A stretch of DNA of 30,900 nucleotides from a virus. The stretch is taken from positions 1 through 30,900 of IMG/VR virus record IMGVR_UViG_3300023171_000325; one strand, given 5' to 3'. This document shows, one piece after another, positions 16,274 to 30,900 of the stretch. The position numbers and the translations under genes are program-made. The notes beneath the pieces were generated by a model, which had not been told where the DNA came from, ran no database searches, and saw only the letters and a program-made list of their open reading frames with translations. How positions within the stretch are numbered: the stretch's first letter is position 1; each line of letters opens with the position of its first letter.

Positions 16274-17284
16274 TCAGGATCGACGCAGAATCTCTTCCGC
16301 CAACGATCGGAACTGCTCTTCCGAGGCTTGAGCTCGTGTCACCTGGCCTCCGCGGATCACCGCGTCGGCTCGCAACTCGAAGATGGCCTTCCGCAAGGTC
16401 TGAGCGTGCGGCACCAGGCTGTGGTAGTTCTTCAGGTCCCCGAGCGATGCTCCAAGGTTACTGGCAGGCATGGCCAGTGTGCCTCCGCTCGGGTGAGCGT
16501 GTGCGTCCAACGGCTGAAGCAGACCAGTCGCCATTGCGGCAGGCATCTTCTCTATCCACTTCGAGAACGCCATGGTCGGGTCCCCGCGGTAGACGTTGAA
16601 CTGCTGGGAAACGTAACCCATGATCCGGGGGAAGCCCAGGGGAATCGGGAAGGCCAGGGGCGGAGCAACCGTCTGCGCTGTCTTCCACTGGCGCACCCAC
16701 CTGTCCACGCTCTGACCAACGCTGGGGAGTGCCCGCAACGAGAAGAGATCTGACGCCATCGGGAGGATGATGTAGTCGCTGCCGAGCAGGACCGCTCGGT
16801 TCAAAGCTCCGACGTTCGGGCCGAGGTCGACGAAGACGATATCAGCACTGATCTGGGCGGCTGCATCGGTGATCATCCGGTAGGGAGCGCTGGTGACGCG
16901 GAATCCCCGCTCATTGCCCGCCAGTGCTTCCGTCCAGGCGTTCGGGAGGATCGACTCGAAAACCGAGAGCTGGATATCACCAGGAATGATCCACACCTTG
17001 CCAGGTCGAATCTCGATCGGCTGCGGAGCGGAGACGTCACCAGACCCGCTCACCAGAGGGGCAAACGCCCCCGCCACCGTGTTCGCGTGAGGAAGCGACG
17101 TCGCAGAATACAGGTCGTCCAGGACTTCATCCTGCAGCGAGATCGCCGTCAAGTTCGCCTGTGCGTCGAGGTCGACGATCAGCACACGCTTCCCAAGACG
17201 GCCCAGCTCGATGGCAGTGTTGAAGAGGGTCGTCGTCTTTCCAACGCCGCCCTTGTGGTTGAAGAACGAGATGATGGGTGTCAT
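16274..17284 (-). CDS. ParA-like deviant Walker A ATPase (probable moron)
   Basis: The 336-residue protein begins MTPIISFFNHKGGVGKTT at ATG 17284. It has the deviant Walker A K11-GGVGK16-TT, the A' motif VLIVDLDAQANLT near 35, and the Walker B-like IVFVDLGPNVGALNRAVL near 150, followed by LGSDYIILPMASDLFSLRAL. The ATPase/AAA_31 fold covers most of the protein; the C-terminal third has no obvious DNA-binding domain and no ParB lies next to it. The GC content is visibly lower than in its neighbours (about 60% by eye). No Shine-Dalgarno lies at a normal distance (GAGGAG is 19 bases away), so the mRNA may be leaderless. Two terminators follow. Partition, competition or defence roles are all possible. 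An upstream TTG (17317) would add 11 residues but looks unlikely. Confidence 0.88.
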   Translation of the reverse strand: MTPIISFFNHKGGVGKTTTLFNTAIELGRLGKRVLIVDLDAQANLTAISLQDEVLDDLYSATSLPHANTVAGAFAPLVSGSGDVSAPQPIEIRPGKVWIIPGDIQLSVFESILPNAWTEALAGNERGFRVTSAPYRMITDAAAQISADIVFVDLGPNVGALNRAVLLGSDYIILPMASDLFSLRALPSVGQSVDRWVRQWKTAQTVAPPLAFPIPLGFPRIMGYVSQQFNVYRGDPTMAFSKWIEKMPAAMATGLLQPLDAHAHPSGGTLAMPASNLGASLGDLKNYHSLVPHAQTLRKAIFELRADAVIRGGQVTRAQASEEQFRSLAEEILRRS

Positions 17285-17317
17285 GGCGTAAGTAAAGCCT
17301 AGTCTCCTCGCCAACAA
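17285..17317 (-). promoter_or_regulatory. Candidate promoter for the ParA-like gene
   Basis: On the minus strand TTGTTG (17312-17317) lies 17 bases from TACTTA (17289-17294), four bases before the ATG at 17284. The hexamers are poor matches to the vegetative consensus, but the location would produce a leaderless transcript, in agreement with the lack of a Shine-Dalgarno. Confidence 0.22.
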
Positions 17318-22058: not shown

Positions 22059-22288
22059 GGTCGGTGACCCTTCTTCTGAGAGATCCGGCTCGCGACCGCG
22101 AGCGCGGTGAGGTTGGTCCACTGGGTGGTGGGGGTGTCGCCGTACACGGTGTGGCGAGGGTGGTAGGCGCGGGTGATGGCTCGTTCCTCGCGCGGGGTGA
22201 GCGTCGGGACGGCGTCGACGGCGCGGCGAATGCGGGCCGCACGGATCTCGGCGGCGCGCTGGGCCCGGGCGGTCTGGGTGATCAGCAC
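22055..22288 (-). CDS. Basic 77-aa early protein, unknown
   Basis: GTG 22288 overlaps the ParB-like stop by seven bases and has GGAGG with a seven-base spacer. The product (VLITQTARAQRAAEIRAARI, then LTPREERAITRAYHPRHTVY, ending ASRISQKKGHRP) is helical, with basic ends. The overlap implies co-translation with the ParB-like protein. No family recognised. An HTH-like packing is possible for residues 10-45. Confidence 0.6.
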   Translation of the reverse strand: MLITQTARAQRAAEIRAARIRRAVDAVPTLTPREERAITRAYHPRHTVYGDTPTTQWTNLTALAVASRISQKKGHRP

Positions 22289-22965
22289 GCGTGGGCCTCC
22301 TCGTCGTCGCGGATGACGCGCTCCCAGCACTGCCCGCACGCCGGCCCGACAGCACGGCGGTCGGCCAGGTGCGTGCACAGGGCGCGCGCAGCGCCGGCGA
22401 GCGGGTGAGAGGTCGTGAAGTGCGCCGGTCGGGCTGCAGAGGCCGTGCGGGCCTCGCCGCGGCCGTCAGCGGCGACCTGGCGTGCGAGGTCGACGGCCGC
22501 GGTGACGGTGAGCTCGCCGTCGGCGACCATGTCCTGCGCCTCCTCGGGGAGCGCCAGGAGCGAGAGGCGGGCGGCGACGGTGCGGGCCGAGTACCCGGTG
22601 CGCTTCGAGATCTCCGGGACGGTCATCCCGCCGTCGCGGAGCCGGCGGAACGCGTTCGCCTGCTCGAGCGTCGAGAGGTCCTTGTGCATGGCCGCAGCGA
22701 GCATCACGGTGTCGCGATGCTCGGCGTCGCCCGGACGCACACCGATGCACGGCAGCGCCTGGGCGCCGGCGTCGAGGGCAGCCTGGTAGCGGCGGTGCCC
22801 GTCGAGAATCAGCCACCCGCGCTGGGTCTGCTCGACGACGAGGGGCTGCAGCAGACCGCGAGCGCGGATCGACGCTGAGAGCTCGGTGAGGTCCCCGAGG
22901 TCGCGCCGGATGTTGTCGGGGTTGGGGAAGATCCGCTCGACGGGGATCTGCGGCAGCCCGGTCAT
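22282..22965 (-). CDS. ParB-like protein 1 with a C-terminal cysteine cluster
   Basis: The 227-residue protein has the ParB/Srx N-terminal domain (IPVERIFPNPDNIRRDLGDL, then LLQPLVVEQ and LDGHRRYQAA with G56-H57-R58-R59) and the HTH segment (MTVPEISKRTGYSARTVAAR, near 112-131). The C-terminus has CTHLADRRAVGPACGQCWER, a zinc-ribbon-like cluster. It lacks a long dimerisation domain. Such lone phage ParB-like proteins are often regulators rather than partition proteins. Its start overlaps the ParB-like 2 stop as ATGA. Confidence 0.9.
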   Translation of the reverse strand: MTGLPQIPVERIFPNPDNIRRDLGDLTELSASIRARGLLQPLVVEQTQRGWLILDGHRRYQAALDAGAQALPCIGVRPGDAEHRDTVMLAAAMHKDLSTLEQANAFRRLRDGGMTVPEISKRTGYSARTVAARLSLLALPEEAQDMVADGELTVTAAVDLARQVAADGRGEARTASAARPAHFTTSHPLAGAARALCTHLADRRAVGPACGQCWERVIRDDEEAHAC

Positions 22966-24404
22966 CAGGCTGCCTGCGCTTCGGGTGTGGCGAGGGCGTC
23001 GAGCTCGGCGGTGGAGGGTGTGTACCCGAGGGCGACGAGGACGTCGTACCAGGCACAGATCTCGAGGATGCGGTCAAGCCAGTACTCGGGGTGGTGCGCG
23101 GTGCCCTCGCCGTAGGTCGCGGCGAGCAGGAGGGTGCGCGCTGCGGCCGAGAGTCCGTTGGCCCAGTCCCGCTGGGCGTCTGTCTCGACGTCGGGGAGGA
23201 CCTCGCGGATGGAGTAGGTGGACAGGCGTGCGTAGCTGTCGGTGATGAGCTCGGTGGTGGCCTTCGTGAGGAAGTACTCGGACACGATGGTGTGCTGTGC
23301 GGGGGTGATCTTGCGGGTCGTGAGGACGTCGCGCAGGAAGGTGAGGCGTGTCTTGGCTGCTGTGCTGACGGTCTCGAGGAGAGCGGTGATCTGGGCGCTG
23401 CGGAGCTCGAGCGCGGCGCGGGCGGCGGCGTTCTTCTCGGCCTTCTTCGCCTCGCTCGCGCGCTCCTTCTCGGTGAGCGGGCGGTAGAGGTAGATGTAGT
23501 AGTTCTCCCTGTAGCGCCAGGTTCTGTCGGCGCCGAGCTCGGTGAGCACGGCGGCGAGCTCGGTTGCGGCATCCTGGCTGCGGTTCGTGAACTGCTTGGC
23601 CTCGCGGTATCCCTCGGGCGTGCCCCAATTCGACGAGGCGGCCTTGACGCCGGCCTTCTTGAGGGCTGCCTTGATGGCCCGCTCAGCCTTGGCCCGCTCA
23701 CGGGCGTCTCGCGCCCGCTGGAGGCGGAAGGAGAAGTCGCGGGTGCCGACGGCCTGGATCAGCAGCTCAGCGTCCTCGGTGCCGTCGAACTCGGCGATCG
23801 CGTCGAGCTGATCGAAGGTCGGGTGCTTGTCGGCGAGCGCGTCGAGGATCCGCGCGGGGGTCTTGGCGGCGTGGGCGCGCTGGGAGACCCACGAGGTGGA
23901 CTTGCCGACGCCCTCGGCGATGCGCTTCTGCGTCATGCCGGGCAGGTCGAGGGTCGCCTGGACGAGGCGAGCCTCCTCGAGCGGCGTGAAGTCCTTGCGG
24001 TTCTGGTTCGCGCCGAGCACGGTGATGAGCGCGGCCGCGTCGTCGAGGTCCTTCACGCGAACGGGAACGAGCACCATGCCGATGGACTGGGCGGCGGCGA
24101 GGCGGCGGTGGCCGTTGAGGACCTCGTACTCCCCCGGGATCGTCGGCGAGGGTCGGACGGTGAGAGCGTCGGTGATCTCCCCGTCGGCCTCGATCGCCGC
24201 GGCGAGCTCCTCGAAGTCGGAGTCCGAGCGGTGCGGGGGGTTGGCCGGGTGCGGGTGCAGCACCGTCGTCTCCAGCAGCCGCGGGTGCGCCGGTGCGCCG
24301 AGCAGCTCGGTCGTCGACGTCGACGAGCCCGAGGAGAGGGTCGCGGCGTCGGGGACGGCGGTGCGCTTGCCTCGTGGTCGGCGGGTGATCGTTGGCTCTG
24401 TCAT
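22965..24404 (-). CDS. ParB-like protein 2 with a large helical C-terminal region
   Basis: ATG 24404 has AGGAG six bases upstream, and the upstream open frame is shadow. The product has 479 residues. Residues 45-110 carry the ParB domain with the signature VLNGHRRLAAAQ (95-106). Residues 148-180 contain the HTH (MTQKRIAEGVGKSTSWVSQR). Residues 230-360 are charged helix (ARDARERAKAERAIKAALKK; LTEKERASEAKKAEKNAAAR), probably a coiled coil. The end is helical with an EYWLDRILEICAWYDVLV segment. It is much longer than usual ParB. It pairs with ParB-like 1, and both may act with the ParA-like ATPase 5 kb downstream, or regulate. Confidence 0.9.
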   Translation of the reverse strand: MTEPTITRRPRGKRTAVPDAATLSSGSSTSTTELLGAPAHPRLLETTVLHPHPANPPHRSDSDFEELAAAIEADGEITDALTVRPSPTIPGEYEVLNGHRRLAAAQSIGMVLVPVRVKDLDDAAALITVLGANQNRKDFTPLEEARLVQATLDLPGMTQKRIAEGVGKSTSWVSQRAHAAKTPARILDALADKHPTFDQLDAIAEFDGTEDAELLIQAVGTRDFSFRLQRARDARERAKAERAIKAALKKAGVKAASSNWGTPEGYREAKQFTNRSQDAATELAAVLTELGADRTWRYRENYYIYLYRPLTEKERASEAKKAEKNAAARAALELRSAQITALLETVSTAAKTRLTFLRDVLTTRKITPAQHTIVSEYFLTKATTELITDSYARLSTYSIREVLPDVETDAQRDWANGLSAAARTLLLAATYGEGTAHHPEYWLDRILEICAWYDVLVALGYTPSTAELDALATPEAQAA

Positions 24405-24694
24405 GGTCTTCTCCTGTGCGGGCAGGTAGCGAGGTGGGTGAGTGCTGGGTCCTCGTGCGGTGCTGGTGTGTCGCCCCGGTCGAGCGGGCGGCAGATCAGC
24501 AAGGTGCGCGAGGTGATCGCGTGCGACGGTGGGATCCCGCACGCGGGGTCGTAGGTCGGGTTGAGCGGGATGCGCTTGCGCCCGACGCCCTTGCGGGGGT
24601 GCTCGGGGACGACGAGGGCGAGCACGATCGGGGCGCCGCAGCCAAACTGCACGACGCCGTCGATGACCTGGTCCTTGCACGTCTCCGTCTTCAT
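24401..24694 (-). CDS. Small Cys/His-rich early protein, unknown
   Basis: The 97-residue protein overlaps the preceding stop and the ParB-like 2 start (ATGA). Cysteines at the start (TETCKDQVI, FGCGAPIV), middle (DPACGIPP) and end (HLATCPHRR) suggest zinc binding. The sequence PLNPTYDPACGIPPSHAITS in the middle is typical of phage zinc-ribbon proteins. Function unknown. Confidence 0.68.
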   Translation of the reverse strand: MKTETCKDQVIDGVVQFGCGAPIVLALVVPEHPRKGVGRKRIPLNPTYDPACGIPPSHAITSRTLLICRPLDRGDTPAPHEDPALTHLATCPHRRRP

Positions 24695-26694: not shown

Positions 26695-27024
26695 TCATGC
26701 CGCCGCGACAGGCTGACGCTTGGAACCTGTCGCGTTTGTCACTCTGTGCACGCGAGAGCCGTCGTGCTTCTCGAAGAGCTCGGAGATATCTCGGTCGACC
26801 CACTTACAGACCGCGAGCGCCAGGTCCTCGCTGCAGCCCTTCATGTTGCCGGTCTCGAGGCCGGAGATCGCCGCCTGCGTACAGCGTGCGAGCGCGGCGA
26901 GGTCGTACTGCGTGAGACCCGCGCGCTTGCGAGCCACGGCGATCTTGCTGCCGTCGATCACCTTCATCCATACCTCCCTGAGATACCGAACCTTCGGTCG
27001 TCGTGCTGTGGTGCGTGCAGTCAT
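26695..27024 (-). CDS. XRE-family HTH regulator (Cro-like)
   Basis: ATG 27024 with AGGAGG five bases upstream is preferred to the longer start. The 109-residue protein has an HTH at about 26-62 (SKIAVARKRAGLTQYDLAAL, ARCTQAAISGLETGN) and a segment LALAVCKWVDRDISELFEKH typical of XRE_3-type domains. It is divergent from the repressor gene and probably acts as Cro or early regulator, binding the CACTTGTC repeats between them (inference). Confidence 0.88.
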   Translation of the reverse strand: MTARTTARRPKVRYLREVWMKVIDGSKIAVARKRAGLTQYDLAALARCTQAAISGLETGNMKGCSEDLALAVCKWVDRDISELFEKHDGSRVHRVTNATGSKRQPVAAA

Positions 27025-27195
27025 CTTGCCCTCCTGGGTCGCGGTTAGACAAGTGGATCTTGCATCACGCCTCACTCACTTGTCAACGGCATGCCTCGAA
27101 ACCCCAGGTAGCGCCGTAGAGTTTCGGCATTCACTTGTCTGGAAATTGGTCCCGACCACTAGCAACAGCGGGACCAGCACCGGGAGGCTTGAGCC
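27025..27195. promoter_or_regulatory. Divergent immunity switch with three CACTTGTC operators
   Basis: The 171-base gap has CACTTGTC at 27077-27084 and 27132-27139 and its inverse GACAAGTG at 27048-27055. The consensus TCACTTGTC(T/A) covers two sites; the first two form an inverted pair 21 bases apart. On the minus strand TTGACA (27081-27086) lies within site 2 and can be a -35 for the XRE gene. On the plus strand TAGAGT at 27117-27122 is a possible -10 for the repressor without a good -35. The layout suits a phage bistable switch. Confidence 0.65.
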
Positions 27196-27780
27196 ATGAA
27201 CGACAGGGAGCAACTGACCCTCCGAGAGGTCGCCTTGAAGGCGTCCGAGCGGGTAGGAGGTCTGCAGGGACGAGCGCTCGACCGAGAGGCCAAGCGGCGC
27301 GGCCTGACCCTGTCGTACACGACCGTCGACAGGATCATCGCCGGCACCTACAAGTCCCGCCCCAAAGGCGAGACGATCGCAGCACTGGCCCAGCTCTCTG
27401 GATACTCCGAGGAGCAGGTGCGCAGGGCGGCGGGGCTCGCCCCGCAGATGCGTTCGTTCGCCGAGGACTTGCCGCCCGACGCCGACCTCCTGTCGCCCGA
27501 CCAGCGCCGCGTGGTGCTCGACGTAGTCCGCCAGTTTGCGCGGGCCAACAGTGAGCTCTACGCAGCACGCCAGAGCGAAGCAGGTGAGGACCGTGCACAG
27601 CGTTCCGCCCCCATGAACCCCGCCGGGGAGAGCCCGGCACAGGACGACACACCCGAGGGCGACGTCGTCGAGATCCGCCGCCGCGGCCGCGGCACGCCGA
27701 GCGGGATCCCGCTCGGCGCCGTGGCAGACCGCAAGCCCGGGTGGCGCCGCGAGGCCGACGAACGCGAGGACTCGATCTAG
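27196..27780 (+). CDS. Prophage immunity repressor (HTH), ImmR-like
   Basis: The 194-residue protein has an HTH in the first 75 residues (REVALKASERVGGLQGRALD, SYTTVDRIIAGTYKSRPKGE, TIAALAQLSGYSEEQVRRAA). The rest includes a helix LSPDQRRVVLDVVRQFARAN, an acidic-polar linker and a basic end. It has no LexA-type Ser-Lys peptidase domain, so it cannot self-cleave and would need an external protease. The ImmA-like peptidase 58 bases downstream fits that role, as in ICEBs1. Codons 167-174 contain a 22-base perfect palindrome. The start ATG 27196 has only weak Shine-Dalgarno (CGGGAGG about 6-12 bases upstream). Confidence 0.85.
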   Translation: MNDREQLTLREVALKASERVGGLQGRALDREAKRRGLTLSYTTVDRIIAGTYKSRPKGETIAALAQLSGYSEEQVRRAAGLAPQMRSFAEDLPPDADLLSPDQRRVVLDVVRQFARANSELYAARQSEAGEDRAQRSAPMNPAGESPAQDDTPEGDVVEIRRRGRGTPSGIPLGAVADRKPGWRREADEREDSI

Positions 27781-27809
27781 CCGACCCGTCCCACACTCGC
27801 TACCATCAT

Positions 27810-27825
27810 TCGAACACCCGTTCGA
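27810..27825 (+). promoter_or_regulatory. Perfect LexA (SOS) box upstream of the ImmA-like gene
   Basis: TCGAACACCCGTTCGA is a perfect palindromic match to the mycobacterial/actinobacterial LexA box TCGAAC-N4-GTTCGA. It lies 13 bases before the GTG of the metallopeptidase gene, in the only intergenic gap in this operon. A possible -10 (TACCAT, 27801-27806) ends four bases upstream of it, so LexA bound there could block transcription. DNA damage would then raise the peptidase, and with it integrase, independent of the repressor promoter. Confidence 0.82.
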
Positions 27826-27838
27826 ACATGGAGGTTGA

Positions 27839-28246
27839 GTGCGGCGTTTGATGGACCTGGCCCACGCCCGTGGGTTGCTCGTCGAGTGGGCTCCACTCGG
27901 CGACGAGGTGCGCGGCTACTACGAGCACCACGTCCGCACCATCACCCTCAACACCGCGCTCCCCCAGGACCTGCTGCTCTGCGCCTTCGCACACGAGCTC
28001 GGGCACGCCTGGTACGGGCACGTGCCCGTCCACGACCAGCGCCTCGCCGAGCGCCACGAGCTGCTCGCCGACCGGTACGCCGCGGACCTCCTCATCACCC
28101 CTGACGCCTACGCGCGCGCCGAAGCGCTCGTCGGCCCTCACCTCGGCGCGATCGCGCTCGAGCTCAGCTGCGACGTCAACCTCGTCGCCGTCTACCAAGA
28201 CGCGCTCGAGACGCGTCGTCGACCCACCGCAAGGAGACCTGCATGA
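27839..28246 (+). CDS. ImmA/IrrE-type metallopeptidase
   Basis: The product of 135 residues has the zinc motif HELGHAWYGH with H52, E53 and H56, and a likely third ligand E74 in ERHELLADRYAADLL. This is the COG2856/ImmA pattern, whose members cut XRE-type repressors. GTG 27839 is four bases after GGAGG, which is short; ATG 27851 would shorten it by four residues but is too far. Downstream of repressor and LexA box, it most likely degrades the repressor on induction (inference by comparison with ICEBs1 ImmA). Confidence 0.92.
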   Translation: MRRLMDLAHARGLLVEWAPLGDEVRGYYEHHVRTITLNTALPQDLLLCAFAHELGHAWYGHVPVHDQRLAERHELLADRYAADLLITPDAYARAEALVGPHLGAIALELSCDVNLVAVYQDALETRRRPTARRPA

Positions 28247-28467
28247 ACGACCCCGCCGACCTCACGGACGAGCAACTCCGCGAGCGCCTGCAGGCGCTGT
28301 ACCCGCTGACGCAGCGCCCAGGTTGCCCTCGGGAGACGACGCTCGAGTACTTCGCTCTGAGTGACGAGGAGGACCGCCGGCTCCCGCCGCGCGTGGTGGA
28401 CATCGGATGCATGGTGTGGAGCGAGGATCTCGAGCGCGAGCTCGAGGGGCACCTCGAGCAGCCGTGA
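28243..28467 (+). CDS. Small acidic protein between peptidase and integrase, unknown
   Basis: ATG 28243 overlaps the peptidase stop (ATGA) and has AAGGAG six bases upstream. The 74-residue acidic product (LTDEQLRERLQALYPLTQRP, EYFALSDEEDRRLPP, EDLERELEGHLEQP) is helical. The stop overlaps the GTG of the integrase, so it is part of the same operon. A recombination or regulatory helper role is possible. It is not recognised. Confidence 0.72.
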   Translation: MNDPADLTDEQLRERLQALYPLTQRPGCPRETTLEYFALSDEEDRRLPPRVVDIGCMVWSEDLERELEGHLEQP

Positions 28468-29936
28468 GCGCCGCTCGCCGCCTGACGTCCGTGCCGGCGA
28501 TCGCGCCTCGGGCGGTGCTGTACCTGCGGCAGTCAACGCACCGGGAGGAGTCGATCTCCCTCGAGCTGCAGGAGTCGGCGGGTCGTGACTACTGCGACCG
28601 CATGGGCTACCAGGTCGTCGCCGTGGAGGCTGACCCGGGCGTCTCTGGGCGGACGTGGAACCGTCCGGCTGTGCAGCGGGTCATGGCGCTCGTCGAGGAC
28701 GGTGGCGCTGACGTCATCGTGCTCTGGAAGTGGTCTCGCCTGTCGAGGAGCCGGCGGGACTGGGCTGTGGCGGCGGACCGCGTCGACGTCGTCGGTGGCC
28801 GTATCGAGTCGTCGACGGAGCCGCTCGACGTCGCGACGTCGGCCGGGCGCCTGGCCCGCGGGATGATGACCGAGTTCGCGGCGTTCGAGTCGGAGCGGAT
28901 CGGAGACGTCTGGAAGGAAGCCCAGGCGCGCCGCGTGCGATCGGGCCGGACCGCGAACGGCAAGCCGCGGTGGGGCTACACCTACGACGCCGAGAAGAAG
29001 ATCCACGTGCCCGACCCGGAGATCGGTCCGGTCGTCGCAGAGATCTACCGCCGGTACGTCGCCGGCGACTCGATGTACCAGCTCACCCGGTGGCTCAACG
29101 ACAACGGCTACAAGACTTCGCCCGGGTACTCCGCGGCCGGGCCTGGGTTCTGGGCGGACCCGTCGCTGCGCACCACCCTCGACTCCGGGTTCGCCGCAGG
29201 GCTGCTCAACGTCAAGGGCGAGAAGCTGCCCGGCGCGCATGAGCCGCTCATCGACGCGGCGACGTGGGAGGCTTACCAGGCGGCCCGTGCAGAGCGCAGG
29301 ACGCAGGGACGGGTGCAGCGGTCCCAGTACCTGCTCTCAGGGCTCGTGCGATGCCACTGTGGCGCCAAGATGGTCGGTGGATCCTCCGGGGTGAACGAGG
29401 TCAAGCCACGGCTGCCCAGGTTCCGGTGCCGCAAGGGCCAGAACGAAGGCCGGCACGCGAGCCTTTCGGTCGCGATGGTCGTGCCCGAGCGCGCCGTCAT
29501 GGAGTGGCTGCGCGACTACGCCCACGACATCGACGACGCCTCCGTGGCCGCGAGCGCAGCTCGGGCCGCCACGGCCCGACACCGCACGGACGTCGAGGTA
29601 ATCTCCCGCGAGCTCGCTGCCCTCGACGCGCAGCTCGTGACCGCGACCAGGCAGCACCTGTCTGGCGTGATCCCCGAGCGCGCCTACGTCGCTGTGAGGG
29701 ACGAACTGCAGGCGCAGGTCGACATGCTCGAGCAGCGACGGGTCCTGGCTGCGGCGAGCGCACGAGGAGGCGTGACTCCTCAGATGGCGAGGGACCTGCT
29801 GCAGGAGTGGGACGAACTGCCGATCGAGCATCGTCGCGAGGCGCTGCGGAAGTTGATCCGGGAGGTCGTGGTCACTCCCGGGAGGCCGCGAGCGCAGTGC
29901 GTAGTCGTAGCGATGTGGGAGCCAACGAGGTCCTGA
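28464..29936 (+). CDS. int: Large serine integrase (site-specific recombinase)
   Basis: GTG 28464 overlaps the preceding stop (GTGA) and gives 490 residues. The catalytic domain (17-150) has VLYLRQSTHREESISLELQ with nucleophile S24 and LWKWSRLSRSRRDWA. The recombinase domain (about 165-285) has GKPRWGYTYD and TRWLNDNGYKTSPGY. A zinc-ribbon begins about 296 with RCHCGAKM and RFRCRKG, with CxC spacing instead of CxxC. A coiled-coil segment spans about 373-435, followed by the C-terminal portion. Length and order match phiC31/Bxb1-type integrases. It lies at the right end of the prophage. Confidence 0.95.
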   Translation: MSAARRLTSVPAIAPRAVLYLRQSTHREESISLELQESAGRDYCDRMGYQVVAVEADPGVSGRTWNRPAVQRVMALVEDGGADVIVLWKWSRLSRSRRDWAVAADRVDVVGGRIESSTEPLDVATSAGRLARGMMTEFAAFESERIGDVWKEAQARRVRSGRTANGKPRWGYTYDAEKKIHVPDPEIGPVVAEIYRRYVAGDSMYQLTRWLNDNGYKTSPGYSAAGPGFWADPSLRTTLDSGFAAGLLNVKGEKLPGAHEPLIDAATWEAYQAARAERRTQGRVQRSQYLLSGLVRCHCGAKMVGGSSGVNEVKPRLPRFRCRKGQNEGRHASLSVAMVVPERAVMEWLRDYAHDIDDASVAASAARAATARHRTDVEVISRELAALDAQLVTATRQHLSGVIPERAYVAVRDELQAQVDMLEQRRVLAAASARGGVTPQMARDLLQEWDELPIEHRREALRKLIREVVVTPGRPRAQCVVVAMWEPTRS

Positions 29937-30574: not shown

Positions 30575-30900
30575 TCGGTCATCTCTCCGATAAAGCGCTT
30601 CAACTCTTCACCATTCGCCTCTACAACCCGCTCGCTCGGCCGATCATCCCCCGATTGTTCCGAAACGAGAGTCATACGCGACGACCCGTCGAGGATGACC
30701 ATGCACTCGAATACACCGCACTCCCACTCAAGGACGATAGACCCTGAAGTATCGGCTGAGAATGCGACGTAAGTGGATCTTGAAGCAATATAGTCCAGCG
30801 CCGATTCCAACAAGTTCAGAGACTGCTCCGGCACCGCGAAACTATTTTCTCCCCACCACCCGGACTCCAGGGCTCGCATCTCCGCCAGCTTGCTTGCCAT
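30571..30900 (-). CDS. Unknown partner protein, start at or beyond window edge
   Basis: The 109 codons seen start with ATG at the very last base and could be complete or 5'-truncated. The sequence MASKLAEMRALESGWWGENS then VPEQSLNLLESALDYIASRS, then IVLEWECGVFECMVILDG and ends GEELKRFIGEMTE. The L-E-S-G-W-x-G opening and S-I-V-L-E-W block recall small proteins that precede partners such as the 30047 product (from memory, not verified). The ATGA overlap means the two are co-translated. Function unknown. Confidence 0.72.
   Translation of the reverse strand: MASKLAEMRALESGWWGENSFAVPEQSLNLLESALDYIASRSTYVAFSADTSGSIVLEWECGVFECMVILDGSSRMTLVSEQSGDDRPSERVVEANGEELKRFIGEMTE

Follow-up and report, generated by a model that had tools for sequence, protein, structure and literature searches.

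Antirepressors whose genes are controlled by the host SOS repressor LexA are known from phage 186 (Tum), N15 (AntC) and Gifsy (GfoA/GftA), in all of which LexA represses the gene for a protein that puts the repressor of the phage out of action (PMC3121763). These proteins act by binding the repressor, not by proteolysis; their hosts are enterobacteria with another LexA box, and the Gifsy genes are located outside the immunity region, unlike the gene considered here. Protease antirepressors are also known, such as ImmA of ICEBs1 and MpaR of Listeria (PMC6872733). In both the ICEBs1 ImmR/ImmA and the Listeria monocin repressor/MpaR pairs, an HTH repressor is followed by an M78/IrrE-type metalloprotease antirepressor; these pairs are autoregulated by the repressor, with SOS acting upstream of, or on, the protease. 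In the accessible parts of two sources on pairs of this type, no LexA box is reported before the protease gene (PMC6872733, PMC12637031). Moreover, no description of a LexA box before an ImmA-type gene was found in the open-access literature, subscription journals lying mostly outside this coverage. GIL01 and CTXphi resemble such a design in that the phage directly uses host LexA, but there the target on which LexA and a phage protein act is a lytic or early promoter of the phage, not a protease antirepressor.

Among phages of Actinobacteria, the order of repressor, M78 peptidase and integrase is known in Corynebacterium, Rhodococcus and Arthrobacter phages and in L224-L226, the IMG/VR phages with the serine integrases closest to that of the present record. 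All three genes share a strand in Adelaide (Corynebacterium), Sleepyhead (Rhodococcus) and TripleJ/Kukla (Arthrobacter), where they are accompanied by divergent Cro/Xis-like genes; in Adelaide the repressor gene overlaps that of the peptidase, and in Sleepyhead and TripleJ/Kukla a short gap parts the two. What distinguishes these phages from the record analysed here, an IMG/VR virus sequence of 30,900 bases that is referred to as the window, is that they have no LexA box near the peptidase start. To judge from the sequences compared, the gene order is ordinary among actinophages and the box is unusual. The best reading is a candidate design joining two known ones, the LexA-controlled antirepressor of 186 Tum, N15 and Gifsy and the ImmR/ImmA protease. 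As the window protein is an M78 peptidase, homology to Tum, AntC or GftA is not expected, and the likeness lies in the working only.

The lysogeny cassette of the window

The window has a G+C content of 69% and encodes tail, head, portal, terminase, ParA/ParB, methyltransferase and lysogeny genes, and judged by this content it is a fragment of a temperate actinophage. One ParA-like and two ParB-like proteins (16274-17317, 22282-22965 and 22965-24506, all on the minus strand) are encoded alongside the serine integrase.

On the plus strand, an HTH repressor is followed by a 58-nt gap, an M78 peptidase, a 74-aa ORF and a serine integrase. The preliminary description had given this order, with a LexA box between repressor and HExxH peptidase, and it is confirmed by the ORFs, Pfam and PHROG; an HTH repressor gene thereby adjoins a protease gene, as in ImmR/ImmA-type switches. 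The chain of stop-start overlaps that had also been described holds for the peptidase, the 74-aa ORF and the integrase, which are joined by ATGA at 28243-28246 and GTGA at 28464-28467, but does not include the repressor, which stands 58 nt away. This gap, between 27780 and 27839, is the sole gap of the operon and contains the box. No terminator-like site was found in the lysogeny region, the gap included, so that read-through from the repressor gene is possible.

The repressor gene (27196-27780, plus strand) encodes 194 aa and matches PHROG 12831, 'transcriptional repressor' (E 7.7e-16). The earlier statement that it lacks a self-cleaving domain agrees with the profile searches, since neither Pfam nor NCBIfam gave an S24/LexA-type match that would place it in that family. 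It is 57% identical over 73 aa to TripleJ gp41, which occupies the equivalent position in an equivalent cassette. Divergent from it is a gene for a small Cro/C1-type HTH protein of 90 aa (26695-26967, minus strand), with Pfam HTH_31/HTH_3 matches above cut-off and PHROG matches to transcription regulators, whose product is a probable Cro-like regulator. Between the two genes are three exact copies of CACTTGTC, one of them inverted (27048-27055, minus strand; 27077-27084 and 27132-27139, plus strand), which are likely to be operators of the phage repressor or Cro. A 17-nt direct repeat, AAGTGGATCTTGNANCA, is present with 15/17 identical positions in the repressor promoter (27051-27067) and beyond the integrase (30771-30787), and is possibly an attachment-related site or a chance occurrence.

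The peptidase (27839-28246, plus strand; 135 aa, GTG start) has an intact HELGH motif and belongs to the M78/IrrE-ImmA-like metallopeptidases, with 29.6 bits for Peptidase_M78 (PF06114) against a Pfam cut-off of 22 and a match to PHROG 87, metallo-protease (2.8e-17). The profile of its phage family matches the IrrE structures 3dte/8slm, and H52, E53, H56 and E74, which make up the HExxH motif and a downstream Glu, are invariant in the peptidase alignment. By analogy with the known pairs, it is predicted to be a protease antirepressor. No relative above about 51% identity was found, one 55% match spanning just 73 residues. The 74-aa ORF (28243-28467, plus strand), taken from the ORF list, has no significant family in Pfam, PHROG or NCBIfam. 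The large serine integrase (28464-29936, plus strand; 490 aa) matches PHROG 95 (E 2.7e-96 in a search run from 28467) and the Pfam families Resolvase/Recombinase/Zn_ribbon_recom, and is 52% identical to S-int of Arthrobacter phage Maja; the GTG at 28464 is taken as its start because this is consistent with the GTGA overlap. In another phage, a 97-aa ImmA-like protein lies between the repressor and a serine integrase (L223:3705-3998, plus strand), with a HExxH segment that seemingly reads VQIAM, and is apparently a protease-dead relative of the window peptidase.

A LexA-type box at the predicted peptidase promoter

The perfect TCGAAC-N4-GTTCGA palindrome of the preliminary description was recovered at 27810-27825 by a motif scan of the record, in which TCGAACACCCGTTCGA is the single perfect match. 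The box, TCGAAC-ACCC-GTTCGA, has arms that extend to TTCGAAC-ACCC-GTTCGAA. A candidate -10 element, TACCAT (TANNNT; 27801-27806, plus strand), is located 3 nt upstream of it and a ribosome-binding site, GGAGG (27830-27834, plus strand), 4 nt downstream, so that a LexA dimer on the box would lie across the predicted start of transcription. A generic scan of the region for sigma-70 consensus promoters gave nothing. The locus presents a 16-bp actinobacterial LexA palindrome at a predicted promoter, as in a LexA regulon, and may be compared with candidate sites at host lexA and recA genes and with the LexA motif of Streptomyces venezuelae, tCGAAC-N4-GNNCGa, which was obtained by ChIP-seq and confirmed by SPR (PMC9380542).

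The box in other phages

Among 80 IMG/VR relatives, most have a repressor gene that overlaps or directly adjoins the peptidase gene, and a single one, L071, has a box within one mismatch near the peptidase; the other 79 have none. Other Micrococcales peptidase loci have no box at the gene start, and most Micrococcaceae loci are likewise without one. SOS-gated transcription is thus not the rule of the family. In TripleJ and Kukla, whose repressors are nearest to that of the window, a gap of 50-65 nt before the peptidase has no LexA box; -10-like sequences are seen in this separate gap (TripleJ L208:5855-5906, Kukla L210:5855-5921), and other control of the peptidase gene is therefore likely.

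IMG/VR was searched for perfect core boxes with a HELGH or HELAH codon pattern at the appropriate distance downstream. The single genuine case was L088, which is a prophage of Paeniglutamicibacter gangotriensis and carries TCGAACACATGTTCGA across the peptidase ATG; L087 and L089 were rejected as chance matches. Relatives of the L088 peptidase provided further boxes, namely TCGAACATATGTTCGA in L254, TCGAACACATGTTCGA in L255, TCGAAAGTATGTTCGA in L257 and TCGGACCCATGTTCGA in L258, and the box of Glutamicibacter phage BIM BV-113 (L284) is TCGAATGTATGTTCGA. All six boxes lie across the peptidase ATG with 0-1 mismatch. BIM BV-113 and the Micrococcaceae prophages of the L088 group share with the window a LexA-type box at the peptidase and the order repressor-peptidase-integrase, but BIM BV-113 has a tyrosine, not a serine, integrase; moreover, the box of the L088 group is over the start codon of an apparently leaderless gene, whereas that of the window is 14-29 nt upstream, and the peptidases fall in separate clades. 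In L071, TCGAACACATGTTTGA, with 1 mismatch, is found at the start of a peptidase gene that neither adjoins the repressor gene nor is directly followed by an integrase. Two oppositely oriented genes part this peptidase from the probable repressor gene (L071:2873-5300), and for that reason it needs its own promoter. The peptidases of L088, L284 and L071 scored 35.8-45.1 bits for Peptidase_M78.

In the boxed loci outside the window, the right half of the box codes for Met-Phe-Glu/Asp, and its conservation alone is therefore no evidence. The left half precedes the ATG and is non-coding, yet it is kept while the adjacent intergenic DNA diverges. In addition, all seven loci have a TANNNT hexamer that ends on the first base of the box (T), 7 nt before the ATG, a placement that fits a leaderless transcript with a promoter covered by the box.

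Genome contigs were also scanned for a box followed by HExxH. The sole clear peptidase-start match among the matches listed was L116, the same prophage as L088, and most others among those listed were unrelated HExxH proteins; L138 (Gemmiger, M78-like, E 5e-13, box TCGAACATCGGTTCGT) has a frame that opens upstream of the box and may be a chance match. A class-wide pattern search of 395 genomes gave three other matches and no clear case beyond the L088 host. Closer relatives of the window were sought via integrase, terminase and repressor. No box was found in those obtained by integrase, and among relatives of the L071 peptidase the box is present only in L071 itself. The box is thus present in the Micrococcaceae clade and L071 and absent from most distant relatives. 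As no relative of the window peptidase above about 51% identity was found, this does not directly count as the absence from close relatives that the preliminary description had named as a refutation.

Over-representation and phylogenetic distribution

A motif-blind test, in which every possible 6-N4-6 palindrome was scored in 113 groups of peptidase start regions (-70 to +20), was run over all loci because the set had partly been gathered by searching for the box. TCGAAC came out at the top of all half-sites, with 3 perfect groups against at most 1 for any other; when one mismatch was allowed, it had 7 groups and no other had more than 2. Only the L088 group had entered through the box scan and its peptidase follow-up; L071 had not, and the window had been picked for its box in the preliminary description. 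Without the L088 group, the two groups left (the window, perfect, and L071, one mismatch) would be level with the best other half-sites, so that the weight of the test rests on conservation within the L088 group together with two cases outside it.

The peptidase tree (130 peptidases, 134 columns; many forks unresolved) has no separate row for L255, which is nearly identical to L254. The L088 group is a starred clade (100/98), every member of which on the tree is boxed, and this one well-supported clade of temperate Micrococcaceae phages, BIM BV-113 among them, accounts for 6/8 boxed loci. As the window and L071 are placed outside it, the box probably arose on two or more separate occasions; the starred branches require a minimum of two changes, and the best tree has three. 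By these comparisons, the box is over-represented and conserved at peptidase starts in two or three separate lineages.

Candidate LexA sites of the hosts

Host sites were taken as the best matches within some hundreds of bases of lexA or recA and are candidates, some perhaps due to chance. In the host of the L088 prophage (G001), the stretch between lexA and a divergently oriented gene contains CCGAACACCTGTTCGA, and TCGAACACCTGTTCTA is found ahead of a DnaE2-like gene. Among hosts or related genomes, sites with 1-2 mismatches are found upstream of lexA in G712, G715, G001, G753 and G580 and upstream of recA in G577, G715, G001 and G753; the boxed prophages are those of G001 (L088/L256), G715 (L257) and G712 (L258). 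The phage boxes are as near the consensus as these host candidates, or nearer. Since G001 has 24 one-mismatch matches genome-wide against 23 for a reversed-pattern control, a lone imperfect site proves little, and position and conservation are required.

Alternative explanations

The claim that a host LexA operator precedes the ImmA-like peptidase and integrase, made in the preliminary description without mention of the LexA-controlled antirepressors of 186, N15 and Gifsy, gains independent support by comparison, from the box at peptidase starts in the Micrococcaceae phage clade and L071, from the first rank of TCGAAC among palindromic half-sites and from host lexA/recA candidates of like form. 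It is very improbable that the window box is a chance match and that the peptidase gene shares a transcript with the repressor gene, as in most relatives. The window is, to be sure, a single case without close relatives, and the genes of most relatives overlap or abut with no box; but a first-order simulation with the window's composition gives about 0.003 perfect matches per window and about 4e-6 in the 58-nt gap, rough values because they derive from a single count, one perfect match in 10 Mb simulated. Furthermore, a box occurs at the equivalent place in other phages, and the gap, the ribosome-binding site and the -10-like element fit a separate promoter.

The box may also be regarded as an operator of a phage regulator, either the repressor or the Cro-like protein; the peptidase gene would then be autoregulated like ICEBs1 immR-immA and the monocin pair of Listeria. 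Autoregulation is the known rule for repressor-protease pairs (PMC6872733), and the L284 box is inside a longer palindrome, TATCTTCGAA-N6-TTCGAAGATA, that another dimeric regulator could bind. However, the motif recurs beside widely differing phage repressors and yet matches candidate host lexA/recA boxes, and the candidate operators CACTTGTC of the window differ in sequence and are confined to the region between the divergent HTH genes, with no copy at the peptidase promoter; such an operator is accordingly improbable. Alternatively, LexA control could be real with the integrase (or the 74-aa protein) as its main target, the peptidase being activated by a separate protein-level signal, as proposed for other ImmA systems. 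The overlaps place the integrase on the peptidase transcript, the boxed phage L284 also has an integrase, of the tyrosine type, directly downstream, and ssDNA-linked signals seem to activate pneumococcal ImmA-type systems at the protein level (PMC12637031). Against this, the L071 box is at the start of a peptidase with no integrase directly after it, and all boxed relatives outside the window have the box overlapping the peptidase start codon, which leaves this a rather unlikely alternative. LexA repression, release upon damage, repressor proteolysis and integrase supply together make up the most economical reading.

A proposed SOS-gated lysogeny switch

It is highly probable, from the comparative evidence, that this lysogeny cassette of a temperate actinophage has a protease antirepressor under the control of the host SOS repressor LexA. 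We infer LexA binding, damage induction, repressor cleavage, a roadblock and a role of the integrase as follows. In an undamaged lysogen, LexA would occupy 27810-27825, over the promoter start, and keep transcription of the peptidase, the 74-aa ORF and the integrase low. As the repressor and peptidase genes are co-directional with no terminator between them, bound LexA may also roadblock transcription running on from the repressor promoter, and a measure of such read-through could provide integrase at first integration. DNA damage would lead, via RecA filaments, to LexA self-cleavage and opening of the promoter, and the peptidase, the 74-aa protein and the serine integrase would be made together. 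By analogy to ImmA and MpaR, the peptidase would inactivate the HTH repressor and free the lytic promoters, and integrase made after damage may be available for excision. A second layer, the activation of the protease itself, which would make the two-layer circuit of the preliminary description, may be present as well.

Implications for actinophage lysogeny

To the question of how DNA damage triggers ImmA-type proteases, the sequence suggests a direct answer in the case of one group, namely host LexA acting at transcription. Two induction strategies previously known separately are joined here, and the SOS dependence of ImmR/ImmA-type actinophages becomes predictable from sequence, with Glutamicibacter phage BIM BV-113 as a cultured test case. 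Host DNA damage could directly switch on a prophage-waking protease, here and in at least one, probably two, unrelated groups of viruses that infect related soil bacteria. It is quite possible, if short of probable, that unrelated actinophages have repeatedly put a protease antirepressor, together with the integrase in the window, under host LexA, and that SOS transcription alone suffices for induction. If true, this would be an SOS-gated proteolytic lysogeny switch in Actinobacteria that works without separate activation of the protease.
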